From: Celeribacter sp. HF31
GTDB lineage: Bacteria; Pseudomonadota; Alphaproteobacteria; Rhodobacterales; Rhodobacteraceae
Reading direction: 5' to 3'
Assembly (NCBI RefSeq): GCF_011806455.1
Contig: NZ_JAATOT010000003.1
Span: forward strand, 124,001-188,000
DNA length: 64,000 bases
Part shown: in pieces, positions 16,442 through 19,117 of the stretch
Numbering within the stretch: position 1 is the first letter of the stretch
How the letters are laid out: the number at the start of each line of letters is the position of its first letter
Translations under genes and position numbers: made by a program
Notes under the pieces: model-generated
Told to the model about the DNA's origin: nothing
Seen by the model: only the letters and a program-made list of their open reading frames with translations
The model's database searches: none

Positions 16442-16701
16442 GGGGGGCTGGTGAGCGAGATGCCGTATGATATTATCAGTGACAAACCGCCAAGCATCAT
16501 GAAAAGGAAATCGCGAGAACTAAATCTGTCGCGCTTTAACTTTTTGATATTAAGCAACTCTTTGGAAAATTTTTTAATTGATCTTCCTTTTTTACCATAA
16601 TTACTAATTGTTCTTTCCCCTAAGCGGCCAACTTGATCGAGAAATGGAGGGATGAATAGCAGTATGCCCGCGAGCAGCCCAAAAAAATCAGCCATCTTCA
16701 T
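16438..16701 (-). CDS. Small two-helix membrane protein of unknown function (AT-rich islet)
   Basis: The 87-aa product has two hydrophobic segments (about 5-20, FFGLLAGILLFIPPFL; and about 67-82, FLFMMLGGLSLIISYG) flanking a strongly basic middle rich in Lys and Arg. It overlaps the end of the XRE-family gene by 14 bp, so translational coupling is likely. Its codon use (TTA, AGA, ATA) and base composition are unlike the surrounding core genes. No homologue comes to mind. Small membrane proteins next to regulator pairs can be toxins or effectors; that is only a possibility here. A second start, MADFF, lies two codons downstream. Confidence 0.55.
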   Translation of the reverse strand: MKMADFFGLLAGILLFIPPFLDQVGRLGERTISNYGKKGRSIKKFSKELLNIKKLKRDRFSSRDFLFMMLGGLSLIISYGISLTSPP

Positions 16702-17332
16702 CTTGGAACTCTTCGTCGTCGATTGGTAGATCTAGAGCTATGGGTGCTGCTACAGAAGTGAAACTAACATCCCAATTTTCACTGTCTTCTATCCCGTATG
16801 TTTCTTCTGCGATTTGCATTATAACTTCATGAAATCTCTCAATTTTACTGATATGCTGAGATATTTCATCGCTCGCGCTTTTTACTGCCTCATAGTGGGC
16901 ACCCTGAAGCATGGCGAAATTCCTTAGTCGTTGAATATCCACTTCACCAAATGAGGTGTCGTCATCAGAATTCAGATCGGCAAGCGTAATAATTGCGGAC
17001 CATGGGTTGTCATCTAAATCATCATCGCTGCGTCTAGTAAAAGTCAGTTTAACATCGCAGTTTACTGCCCGCGCGTAGCGGCAAATTGACTGCAATCCTA
17101 TATCTCCAGTTCCGTTTTCCAATTTAGATACACCGGAGGCGGATATACCAACACGCTCACCGATCTCCTTGAGTGAAAGGCGTTGGAATTTTCTTAAGTT
17201 TTGGAGAGTGTTCCTTACTTGCGTCGAAATCTGGTTGATTTCTGAAAATTCTTTTTCACTCTCTAAGACTTCAGGTGCACGATGACTTAGTTCTCTTTCG
17301 AGTTTTTCGAGGAATTTACCAGTGAATGCCAT
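16688..17332 (-). CDS. XRE-family helix-turn-helix regulator (AT-rich islet)
   Basis: The 214-aa protein carries a Cro/C1-type helix-turn-helix at about 45-95, with the characteristic LSLKEIGERVGISASGVSKLE block. The C-terminal half is acidic and ends in a Glu/Asp-rich tail (PIDDEEFQDEDG). The HTH with a trailing uncharacterised domain resembles antitoxins or repressors that bind a partner protein. It is the middle gene of a three-gene operon: 12 bp after the 127-aa gene and overlapping the 87-aa membrane gene. Two copies of an 11-bp element flank the presumed operon promoter and may be its operators. The partner function is unknown. Confidence 0.75.
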   Translation of the reverse strand: MAFTGKFLEKLERELSHRAPEVLESEKEFSEINQISTQVRNTLQNLRKFQRLSLKEIGERVGISASGVSKLENGTGDIGLQSICRYARAVNCDVKLTFTRRSDDDLDDNPWSAIITLADLNSDDDTSFGEVDIQRLRNFAMLQGAHYEAVKSASDEISQHISKIERFHEVIMQIAEETYGIEDSENWDVSFTSVAAPIALDLPIDDEEFQDEDG

Positions 17333-17344
17333 GGTTTCAGTTTC

Positions 17345-17728
17345 CTATTTTAACACATTGCAAAGGAAGCGCTCTGCGTCGGCTTTAATTGTGTTAAGCG
17401 TTGGGACGGATTCTGGCGGGTGAAACAATACCGCAGCGAGGTCGTAGTCCCGTAGAAGACAAACCAAAGCAGCACATTCATCGCGCTGAATCGTTCGCCA
17501 CGATGGGATAAGGTGCATCGTGCAGCCATTGGTTGGACCATAAAGTAACGTGCTATTTCCGTCCAAGTCTGAAAACGCATCTTTGAACCTCCGAAGGAGT
17601 AATCCCGCGGCGCGGGAATCTCGTTTTCCAAATTCAACAAAGCTTTCAAGTGCCGCATCTTCAGCCTTTACTACGAGCTCTGTGGAGGCAAGCCTCCAAT
17701 TTTGATCAGAATCACTCTTATTGGACAT
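17345..17728 (-). CDS. Unknown 127-aa protein, first gene of the AT-rich islet
   Basis: I do not recognise this protein. It is soluble, with a Trp/Arg-containing segment (LIPSWRTIQRDECAALV) and no signal peptide or membrane segment. The start MSNKS is an ATG preceded by GGATT; a TTG codon three positions upstream is possible but less likely. It leads the operon that continues with the XRE regulator, a layout shared by toxin-antitoxin modules of the HigBA style and by small defence modules, but no RelE/HigB residues can be pointed to. The AT-rich composition indicates horizontal acquisition between pncB and arfB. Confidence 0.55.
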   Translation of the reverse strand: MSNKSDSDQNWRLASTELVVKAEDAALESFVEFGKRDSRAAGLLLRRFKDAFSDLDGNSTLLYGPTNGCTMHLIPSWRTIQRDECAALVCLLRDYDLAAVLFHPPESVPTLNTIKADAERFLCNVLK

Positions 17729-17746
17729 ATATGTCAATCCGGTTAA

Positions 17747-17827
17747 TAATCAATTCGTTGTATGTTGCGCATATCGCTACAAAAATATCTTTCCGCGAGC
17801 GCAATTTATCAATGATTAATCAACTCG
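17747..17827 (-). promoter_or_regulatory. Islet operon promoter with repeated 11-bp elements
   Basis: On the minus strand TTGATA (plus 17807-17812) and GATATT (plus 17784-17789) are separated by exactly 17 bp, a good sigma-70-like promoter reading into the islet. The plus-strand 11-mers TAATCAATTCG (17747-17757) and TAATCAACTCG (17817-17827) differ by one base and bracket this promoter. TGATTAATCA (17813-17822) is a perfect palindrome overlapping the second copy. This is the layout of an autoregulated HTH operon. Confidence 0.5.
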
Positions 17828-18232
17828 GCCTCGAAGTTTCTTAACCTCCCCCCGCTCCTTCTTCGCCTTGATACGCCGTTCCACGCTGCCCTTCGTCGGT
17901 TTCGTCTTGATCCGGCGTTTCGGCTTTTCCGTAGCTTTCAGGATCAATTCCACCAGCCGTTCCCGCGCGATCTCTCGGTTTCGCGCTTGCGAGCGGGTTT
18001 CTTCGACCTGAATGACGACGGCGCCTTCCTTGGTCCAGCGGCGTCCGGCCAGACGCCTCAGGCGGTTCTTCACGGGTTCCGGCAGGTTCGGCGAGCGGGC
18101 GGCCTCAAAGCGGAGTTCAACCGCCGTCGAGACCTTGTTCACGTTCTGCCCGCCGGGACCGGACGAGCGGACGAACTGCTCGGTCAGTTCCCAATCGGCG
18201 AGGGTGATTTGATCTGTGACGGTCAGGGGCAT
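17816..18232 (-). CDS. arfB: Alternative ribosome-rescue factor ArfB (peptidyl-tRNA hydrolase)
   Basis: ArfB (YaeJ) binds ribosomes stalled without a stop codon and hydrolyses the peptidyl-tRNA. The 138-aa protein has the release-factor GGQ motif in SSGPGGQNVNKVST near the N-terminus and the basic C-terminal tail (about 100-138, rich in Lys and Arg) that enters the empty mRNA channel. The start MPLTVTDQ was chosen because it fits the family N-terminus; a TTG six codons earlier is alternative. No clear Shine-Dalgarno sequence precedes it. A Rho-independent terminator ends only 18 bp before the start codon, leaving little room for a separate promoter, so expression may rely on read-through (see the leader finding). 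Confidence 0.9.
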   Translation of the reverse strand: MPLTVTDQITLADWELTEQFVRSSGPGGQNVNKVSTAVELRFEAARSPNLPEPVKNRLRRLAGRRWTKEGAVVIQVEETRSQARNREIARERLVELILKATEKPKRRIKTKPTKGSVERRIKAKKERGEVKKLRGRVD

Positions 18233-18250
18233 GATGAACAGATACCGCAA

Positions 18251-18280
18251 AAGGAAAAGGGCTGCCAGATAGAGCAGCCC
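18251..18280 (-). terminator. Terminator immediately upstream of arfB
   Basis: On the minus strand a perfect 7-bp stem GGGCTGC/GCAGCCC (plus 18274-18280 with 18259-18265) with an 8-nt loop is followed by TTTTCCTTTT. It lies between the 18-codon leader ORF and arfB, so it can act as terminator of the leader transcript or as an attenuator of arfB. Confidence 0.75.
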
Positions 18281-18348
18281 TCCGAGATCTCAGGAGATGG
18301 GGTCAGTTAGGACACCCAATCAGGAGTGTTTCACACTAGATTTTTCCT

Positions 18349-18405
18349 CTAGGTGGCGGCCCCCCCGACTGTCTTGACCTCGCTCTCCAACATCACTCTA
18401 GACAC
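18349..18405 (-). CDS. Candidate 18-aa leader peptide ORF
   Basis: A GTG start opens an 18-codon frame reading MSRVMLESEVKTVGGAAT and ending in TAG. It is preceded by AAAGGAGGTG at five-base spacing, one of the strongest ribosome-binding sites in the window, which is why this tiny frame is listed. Downstream lie a short AGTGT/ACACT hairpin and then the terminator before arfB. The last codons (Gly-Gly-Ala-Ala, a G7CCGCC run) are complementary to the 3' arm of that terminator in seven of eight positions. I do not recognise the peptide. It could be a leader peptide or the coding part of a dual-function small RNA. Confidence 0.5.
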   Translation of the reverse strand: MSRVMLESEVKTVGGAAT

Positions 18406-18475
18406 TGGACCACCTCCTTTCGATGAATTGCCGATAGGTTTATGGTGGCACAGATTTGGTATATAGCAAGTAAAT

Positions 18476-19117
18476 TTATACCATACGTGCCGAGAGGCGC
18501 CCAACAATTAGGCGGAAAGGCACGAGAGCGATCAATGCGAGAGCGAATTTTACACCCCAATCGGCCACGGCGAGCGAAATCCAGAGCGGAACCGGATGGC
18601 CAACCATGAGGAAGGGCACGGCGTCCCAGGCCCAGGACACTTCCATGTCGGCATTCTCGCCAAAGACCGTGATGCTTTGCGAAAACGCGATGGTGAAGAA
18701 AATCGCGGTATCGAGCGCAGAGCCGATGAGCGACGAGGTAAAGGGCGCTTTCCACCACGACCCTTCGCGCATCCGGTCAAAGACGAAGACGTCGACAAGC
18801 TGGGCGATCAAAAAGGCAGTGGCGGAGCCCACGGCAACACGCAGAGCGACGGCCTGATAGGTGTAGCCATCGCCTTGGAGCGTGATCTGCGTGCCGATGA
18901 GGGAACAGACGATGCCCGCGACAAAGCCCGCGAAGATGACTTTGCGCGCGGATTTGACGCCATAGACGCGGTTCATCACATCGGTGACGAGGAAGGCGAA
19001 AGGATAGGTGAAGGCACCCCAGGTCAGAAGCCCATCGAAGAGCAGGAACTGAACGAGGATGTTGGAAGCCACAACAATGGCGGCCATGGCAAGAATGCCA
19101 AGAAGAAGCTGTTTCAT
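18476..19117 (-). CDS. yhhQ: Queuosine precursor transporter
   Basis: YhhQ proteins (VUT family, COG1738) import 7-cyano- or 7-aminomethyl-7-deazaguanine for queuosine synthesis. The 213-aa protein has about six membrane segments and family features such as FPFAFLVTDVMNR-like FAFLVTDVMNRVYG, ARKVIFAGF, and the acidic/aromatic loop DRMREGSWWKAPF before SLIGSALDTAIFF. The start MKQLLLG was chosen over an upstream ATG because of the hydrophobic N-terminus and because the leader pseudoknot ends just before it. The leader carries a preQ1-riboswitch-like element, consistent with feedback by the imported compound. Confidence 0.85.
   Translation of the reverse strand: MKQLLLGILAMAAIVVASNILVQFLLFDGLLTWGAFTYPFAFLVTDVMNRVYGVKSARKVIFAGFVAGIVCSLIGTQITLQGDGYTYQAVALRVAVGSATAFLIAQLVDVFVFDRMREGSWWKAPFTSSLIGSALDTAIFFTIAFSQSITVFGENADMEVSWAWDAVPFLMVGHPVPLWISLAVADWGVKFALALIALVPFRLIVGRLSARMV

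Follow-up and report, generated by a model that had tools for sequence, protein, structure and literature searches.

A candidate small RNA gene related to CC2171, with a closable ribosome site, between vut and arfB in Rhodobacteraceae

The small RNA family CC2171 (RF01867), from Caulobacter and other Alphaproteobacteria, is filed in Rfam as an sRNA gene; its source is reportedly Landt et al. 2008, going by the family title and a reference list. No function was described for CC2171 in the open-licence literature searched, as far as its text was accessible. A Mesorhizobium homologue, MH_s33, corresponds to RF01867 and was an RNA-seq product of 215 nt (PMC5596092, accessible portion), and RF01867 is among the families given an improved structure (PMC11701678, accessible portion). 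In Rhodobacterales, uORFC-8-2 is a candidate attenuator of cysS that carries tandem Cys codons and was found only upstream of cysS, according to the available sections of PMC8632094. From Rhodobacter sphaeroides, a member of the family Rhodobacteraceae, available excerpts describe the small RNAs Pos19, a small coding RNA, and UpsM, an sRNA in a 5' leader.

The RNA treated here lies in a stretch of 64,000 nucleotides from Celeribacter sp. HF31 (the window), upstream of arfB. No report of an arfB-linked RNA was found in a literature search covering open-licence papers, and the exact sequence words of the RNA had no match in the same body of papers. The names of the flanking genes were not found in a Paracoccus sRNA paper, and nothing relevant was found in a Bradyrhizobium sORF paper. 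Likewise, the motif was not found in the accessible portions of the 26-genome and 104-motif RNA papers (PMC8632094, PMC2864571).

The locus and its relatives

All features of the locus are on the minus strand. The RNA, a Rhodobacteraceae relative of CC2171 of about 180 nt (18255..18435), was recognised by alignment to RF01867 and by a family covariance model, R1, built from 19 sequences. Its upstream neighbour is vut_1 (18476..19117, putative start), assigned by Pfam as a putative vitamin uptake transporter gene (PF02592); a vut gene was found upstream of the RNA in 140 of 150 loci. Downstream lies arfB (17816..18232), encoding a peptide-chain-release-factor-like ribosome rescue factor. The gene identity given in an earlier note on this DNA was borne out by the RF-1 domain (PF00472, 82.6 bits), and so was the absence of a clear Shine-Dalgarno (SD) site in front of arfB.

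The arrangement that the note had described 5' of arfB, an 18-codon ORF with a very strong SD, hairpins and a terminator, is present in full. The SD, GAAAGGAGGTGGTCCAG (18405..18421), was located by its pairing with the 16S tail and is followed by the ORF VSRVMLESEVKTVGGAAT (18349..18405; GTG at 18405-18403, stop TAG at 18351-18349). Further 3', the segment CATCTCC (18293..18299, inside CTGACCCCATCTCC) resembles the 16S tail and, by pair counts, pairs with the SD as an internal anti-SD. The intrinsic terminator, identified from the sequence and by folding, consists of a hairpin (18256..18283) followed by TTTTCCTTTT. Its stem has 11 pairs, and the perfect 7-bp core noted previously is contained within it. 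The terminator is located just 5' of arfB, as had been stated, with the T run ending 16 nt before the ATG and not 18.

Two further features of the window were recorded. 3' of arfB (16688-17737, minus strand), a 130-aa ORF without a Pfam match is followed by a gene for a 214-aa HTH_3 protein, and the order of this gene pair resembles that of a toxin-antitoxin system. The window's sole Rfam match at the gathering cut-off was a serC leader (RF00517; 34071-34122, minus strand, 72.5 bits); at that cut-off, no match was obtained between vut_1 and arfB.

Upstream of the RNA, a -35-like box TTGCTA (18464..18469) and, 16 nt from it, a -10-like box CACCAT (18442..18447) would place the transcription start near 18435. 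Among relatives, the promoter consensus was of the TTGACA-N16-CANNNT type: 120 of 150 loci had a TTGAC at positions -49..-47 relative to GAAAGG, and CANNNT or TANNNT occurred at a window-like spacing in 116 of the 127 loci having a TTGAC box. The terminator stem co-evolves, with own-species pairing beating all 60 shuffles (150 genomes) and 11 of 11 counted stem pairs changing on both sides in relatives. Loci with and without adjoining arfB had equally strong terminators (medians of -23.1 and -23.8 kcal/mol, respectively). Judged from these elements, the RNA looks to have its own promoter and its own terminator. The promoter spacer was itself conserved (AACACAAAATCTGTG; 18448-18463 in the window), and 63 of 150 loci had in it an operator-like palindrome, CACA-N5-TGTG (one in the opposite-order control), of which the window spacer has the right half only.

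DNA searches found the RNA in 28 of 61 genomes, own included; one of them, G043, belongs to another family and has a different peptide type. With R1, the RNA was detected at E<=0.01 in 362 of 394 family genomes (361 of 393 genera), 339 of these at E<=1e-10, the weaker ones being possibly partial. In a second draw of Rhodobacteraceae genomes, it was present in 146 of 149. For in-depth analyses, the best-scoring 150 loci of the 362 genomes with a match were used, a set that favours clean copies because it was chosen in this way. Locus L036 (other family, other peptide) was left out of the alignment, A1. When a plasmid collection was searched with the family RNA, no match was obtained; with an other-family relative as the query, there was one 27-base match, in Methylobacterium, where it is unannotated.

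RF01867 aligned to 18258-18429 over the whole model (positions 1-159 of 159), including the conserved 5' block and the terminator, with 29.6 bits (E 7e-5). The Rfam gathering score is 75 bits, and because the window RNA stays below it, the RNA is called here a relative and is not filed as a CC2171 member. A genome-wide scan with RF01867 at E<=0.01 gave this match alone (E 2.8e-4). All 20 other family loci scanned, out of the 150, also matched at full length (30.3-46.9 bits). Within the class, 28 of 123 genomes matched, five over the cut-off, and 2 of 14 controls did so, one over the cut-off; these were Caulobacter vibrioides and Deinobacterium chartae, the latter being no alphaproteobacterium. 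Two matches per genome were observed in G048, G525 and G553, and one in the other matching genomes.

Of 240 class genomes, 20, counting that of the window, had the exact SD-start motif, against 0 in the reversed control; when as many as two mismatches were tolerated, 51 of 230 genomes had it (control, 1). Each of the 20 exact-motif loci combined a terminator-like hairpin with a short ORF of 18-30 codons whose peptide begins with MS. In 19 other-family genomes, no arfB or vut was found in the flanks of the RNA (approximately 1.5 kb; less on two short contigs). The RF01867 cut-off was passed by 4 of the 19 other-family loci plus one family locus scanned. At a lower threshold, nine of ten other-family loci matched (30.0-53.6 bits; L382 did not), nine of those ten being also among the 19, and outside Rhodobacteraceae R1 scored at most 38.4 bits. 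The other-family peptides were unrelated, mostly of 20-35 residues. Frames of 39-58 codons were seen in L369 and L374 (GTGCG after the SD) and in L366 and may be other genes. We infer that the long 16S complementarity, the ORF and the terminator are properties of the CC2171 group at large.

In five of the 32 genomes without an R1 match, a variant, GAAAGGAGGTGCC, occupies the space from vut to arfB. Its layout is that of the RNA, with an anti-SD CCACCTC(C), an ORF of 18 codons in four of the five and 23 in the other, a GGGGGCAGCCC hairpin at the stop in four of the five, and a terminator-like hairpin, as judged by eye. The variant peptide, MIIGKQEQLVKVTSEVKV and kin, is unrelated to VSRVMLESEVKTVGGAAT. 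In a sixth genome, the frame behind the SD has 24 codons, and arfB does not follow it. RF01867 matched none of the six variant loci.

Ribosome site, reading frame and fold

The SD GAAAGGAGGTGGTCCAG can pair with the 16S rRNA 3' end of the same genome, GGCTGGATCACCTCCTTTCT, in 17 consecutive positions, one of them G-U; the rRNA sequence was taken from one of the genome's own contigs and recognised as 16S by Rfam. It was the strongest of 716 seeded 16S-tail-complementary candidates in the window (-32.4 kcal/mol, the next being -22.4). Allowing up to three mismatches, the SD-start motif occurred once in the window (0.05 expected). Genome-wide, GAAAGGAGGTGRTCCAG matched exactly nowhere else except at the complement of the 16S end itself, and the next two sites had two mismatches.

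The ORF is strongly conserved, so the lack of conservation that the note had named as a ground for dropping its proposal was not seen. The start was GTG in 150 of 150 loci, the length was exactly 18 codons in 140, and the stops were TGA in 80, TAG in 42 and TAA in 28. Of the 150 rows, 10 had an indel in alignment columns 17-68 (codons 1-17) and 118 had one past the stop, in columns 76-128. Entropy by codon position was 0.41/0.48/0.60 bits in codons 2-12 and 1.28/1.15/1.03 bits in codons 13-18, and the codon-position coding signal in the ORF was weak. This pattern would point to selection acting less on one peptide than on keeping a frame of constant length translated. The same invariable start and fixed length (150 and 140 of 150), together with the largely indel-free frame and the very strong SD, would also suit a plain small mRNA, its product being the 18-residue peptide, made at a very high rate. 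However, the C-terminal codons vary freely, the peptides of other families are unrelated and that of the sister group at the same locus is of the MIIGKQEQLVKVTSEVKV type, and the SD is sequestered; we regard a peptide product as quite improbable.

Using RNAalifold and pair counts on 100 sequences, 95.7% of cells were paired, vs 42.6-53.2% in slid versions, figures that lean to the R1 structure because the fold was derived on an alignment itself fitted to R1. The predicted fold comprises the SD:CATCTCC helix, a hairpin over the start, nested helices at the ORF end and stop, and the terminator; the hairpins covary among relatives. In the SD:CATCTCC helix, 99.7% of cells were paired (2 of 700 unpaired; 100 rows) and the changes were one-sided only, since the SD side hardly varies and the helix is thereby unable to show two-sided covariation.

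An alignment-free best-site search gave 7 of 7 pairs with the SD in 147 of 150 sequences, nearly always at 41-52 nt from the RNA end, and this pairing beat cross-species pairing in 60 of 60 shuffles. In most relatives, the pairing segment, CTGGCCCATCTCC, resembles the 16S tail CTGGATCACCTCC, so that the tail is both complemented and mimicked within one RNA. In other families, the pairing with the mimic was modestly above chance, with 8 of 33 loci at rank <=0.05 (control, 2 of 33), after three of 36 loci (L366, L374 and L377), whose ORF exceeded 40 codons or ran off the contig, had been dropped.

A C/U-rich segment conserved before the terminator would also fit a base-pairing sRNA, in which the CCATCTCC segment serves as an anti-SD seed on target mRNAs while the ORF and SD are incidental. 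Caulobacter Sis sRNAs are described, in the accessible part of PMC12559287, as having a motif with an anti-SD signature. Against such a seed, almost every sequence allows the segment to pair with the SD of the RNA itself, and the length and stop of the ORF are conserved, which makes this explanation rather improbable.

Relation to arfB

Downstream of the RNA, arfB was found on the same strand within 300 nt in 121 of 150 loci, and within 40 nt in 54 of these, where the gap is too short for an arfB promoter wholly outside the RNA. Among the 29 remaining loci, arfB lies at a larger distance, 313-1989 nt downstream, in four, and in one the contig breaks off at 302 nt. ArfB relatives were detected in 375 of 394 family genomes. 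Of the 19 ArfB-less genomes, 15 were also without a detected RNA, vs 17 of the 375 having ArfB. A vut homologue is retained in eight of the 15 and absent from the other seven; five or six of the 17 carry the variant. The joint absence could be explained by joint loss of neighbours, draft gaps or old lineages, and the RNA and ArfB may conceivably work in one pathway.

The earlier note had proposed a translation-sensing attenuator, in which translation of the 18-codon ORF chooses between the terminator and a mutually exclusive antiterminator ahead of arfB. Its parts all exist: the leader ORF, the terminator and the alternative pairing of GGGCCGCC with GGCAGCCC, which indeed matches in 7 of 8 positions. 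The proximity of arfB and its joint absence with the RNA also speak for it. However, of the two pairings in which compensatory changes had been suggested as a check, the terminator stem co-evolves and the antiterminator does not: over 150 genomes, the latter gave -13.04 vs -13.00 for cross-species pairing, 24 of 60 shuffles were as good, and it was likewise no better when only the 67 loci having arfB at 60 nt or less were considered. The alternative pairing is hence not conserved, an outcome that the note itself had named as counting against its proposal. In the window, the antiterminator (-17.8) must break a hairpin of -23.2 and the terminator of -18.3. A second attenuator arrangement, built on pairing between the anti-SD segment and the 5' arm of the terminator, was rejected because cross-species pairing was stronger in all 60 shuffles.

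The RNA is also undiminished where arfB is not near. The 29 loci without a near arfB keep the 18 codons in 28 cases, their scores do not differ in rank (p=0.51), and none of the 19 other-family genomes has arfB in the flanks covered. Conversely, gaps of 55-147 nt without a recognisable RNA separate vut and arfB in at least four genomes (G153, G271, G151 and G318), and gaps of 212 and 332 nt without an SD do so in G356 and G270. Nor was any run of regulatory codons seen.

The start of arfB was inspected as well. An SD-like 4-mer preceded arfB in only 15 of the 121 near loci (control, 3). In the window, TATCTG (18239..18244), 6 nt 5' of the arfB ATG, is -10-like without being an exact TANNNT and is a possible leaderless promoter of arfB. 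An exact TANNNT at -14..-11 from the ATG was present in 29 of 121 arfB genes near the RNA (controls, 0-6). Split by gap, these were 17 of 54 genes at 40 nt or less (0-1 in controls) and 12 of 67 genes farther away (0-5 in controls). Among arfB genes not adjacent to the RNA, 13 of 24 had the box (0-2 in controls). Some of these 24 are located 2-3 kb downstream on the same contig and others far off. Most arfB genes are without an exact TANNNT. Caulobacter is stated to have 375 leaderless mRNAs (PMC4117421, accessible part). These sequence patterns suggest that arfB may often be leaderless and have its own promoter. Such a leaderless-type -10, seen both beside the RNA and away from it, stands against the attenuator, whereas TTG at the -35 position in only 2 of the 29 adjacent arfB genes with TANNNT is in its favour. 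On balance, an attenuator of arfB is quite improbable.

The terminator and an arfB promoter may overlap. In several non-adjacent arfB loci (L342-L365), a T-rich stretch was seen by eye near -35; it resembles the terminator U-tract found at that position where arfB adjoins the RNA. In L031, two stretches after arfB (519-836) are 67-75% identical to the C-terminal 40-45 residues of ArfB and are perhaps partial duplicates or lysine-rich chance matches.

Proposed mode of action and known systems

The alternative that the earlier note had mentioned, an independent dual-function small RNA, is favoured by the RNA's predicted own promoter and by its full-length kinship to CC2171. We consider it probable that the locus is an independent small RNA gene, a relative of CC2171, whose product is an autoinhibited, ribosome-gated small mRNA/sRNA that may act in trans. 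The RNA would be transcribed from its own promoter and end at its own terminator. A 17-bp duplex between its 5' part and the 16S rRNA 3' tail would let a 30S subunit load during RNA synthesis and translate the short ORF, as the conserved frame and stop suggest. Once the 3' part has been made, the mimic of the 16S tail would close over the SD, and hairpins would close over the start and the stop. With all three closed, the finished RNA would be shut unless a ribosome holds it. Action in trans would be exerted by the released RNA or by the act of translation, not by a specific peptide.

Several observations count against an independent, ribosome-gated RNA of this kind: the score of 29.6 bits vs the cut-off of 75, the sister variant unmatched by RF01867, the weak codon signal, the modest pairing of the SD mimic outside the family, and the Deinobacterium chartae match. 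Intergenic ncRNAs of Caulobacter are said to be untranslated in the accessible part of PMC4117421; should CC2171 be one of these, that would speak against its translation. The synteny with arfB and the joint absence with ArfB hint at some link of arfB to the RNA.

A broader idea is that the CC2171 kin, usually one per genome, serve throughout the class to sense or buffer free 30S subunits, flipping between complement and mimic of the 16S tail depending on the number of such subunits, the peptide being dispensable and only the loading and running of the short ORF mattering. This we put forward as a speculation, unlikely as it stands.

The RNA was detected in about nine-tenths of the genera of the family and was below the Rfam cut-off in all 21 copies scored (the window and 20 others), and it ties Rhodobacteraceae to CC2171. 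It would bring a strong, testable feature to this group, a 17-bp complementarity to the 16S tail, closable by an internal copy of the tail. The tempting account of arfB regulation is removed as unsupported, and arfB may often be leaderless.

Compared with CC2171, the window RNA has the same 5' block (model consensus, cAAcaAucGAAAGGAGGUGAUCCAGUGUCU), a similar length and a terminal terminator; it differs in its SD-sequestering helix and 18-codon ORF and in its position between vut_1 and arfB. With uORFC-8-2 it shares, as far as the accessible sections of PMC8632094 describe it, a short ORF, a structured leader, a terminator and the bacterial order, Rhodobacterales. Unlike uORFC-8-2, the window RNA is without tandem Cys codons and is kept where arfB is not near. 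UpsM and Pos19 are likewise small RNAs of the family, and by description alone, in the excerpts available, their loci are distinct from that of the window RNA.
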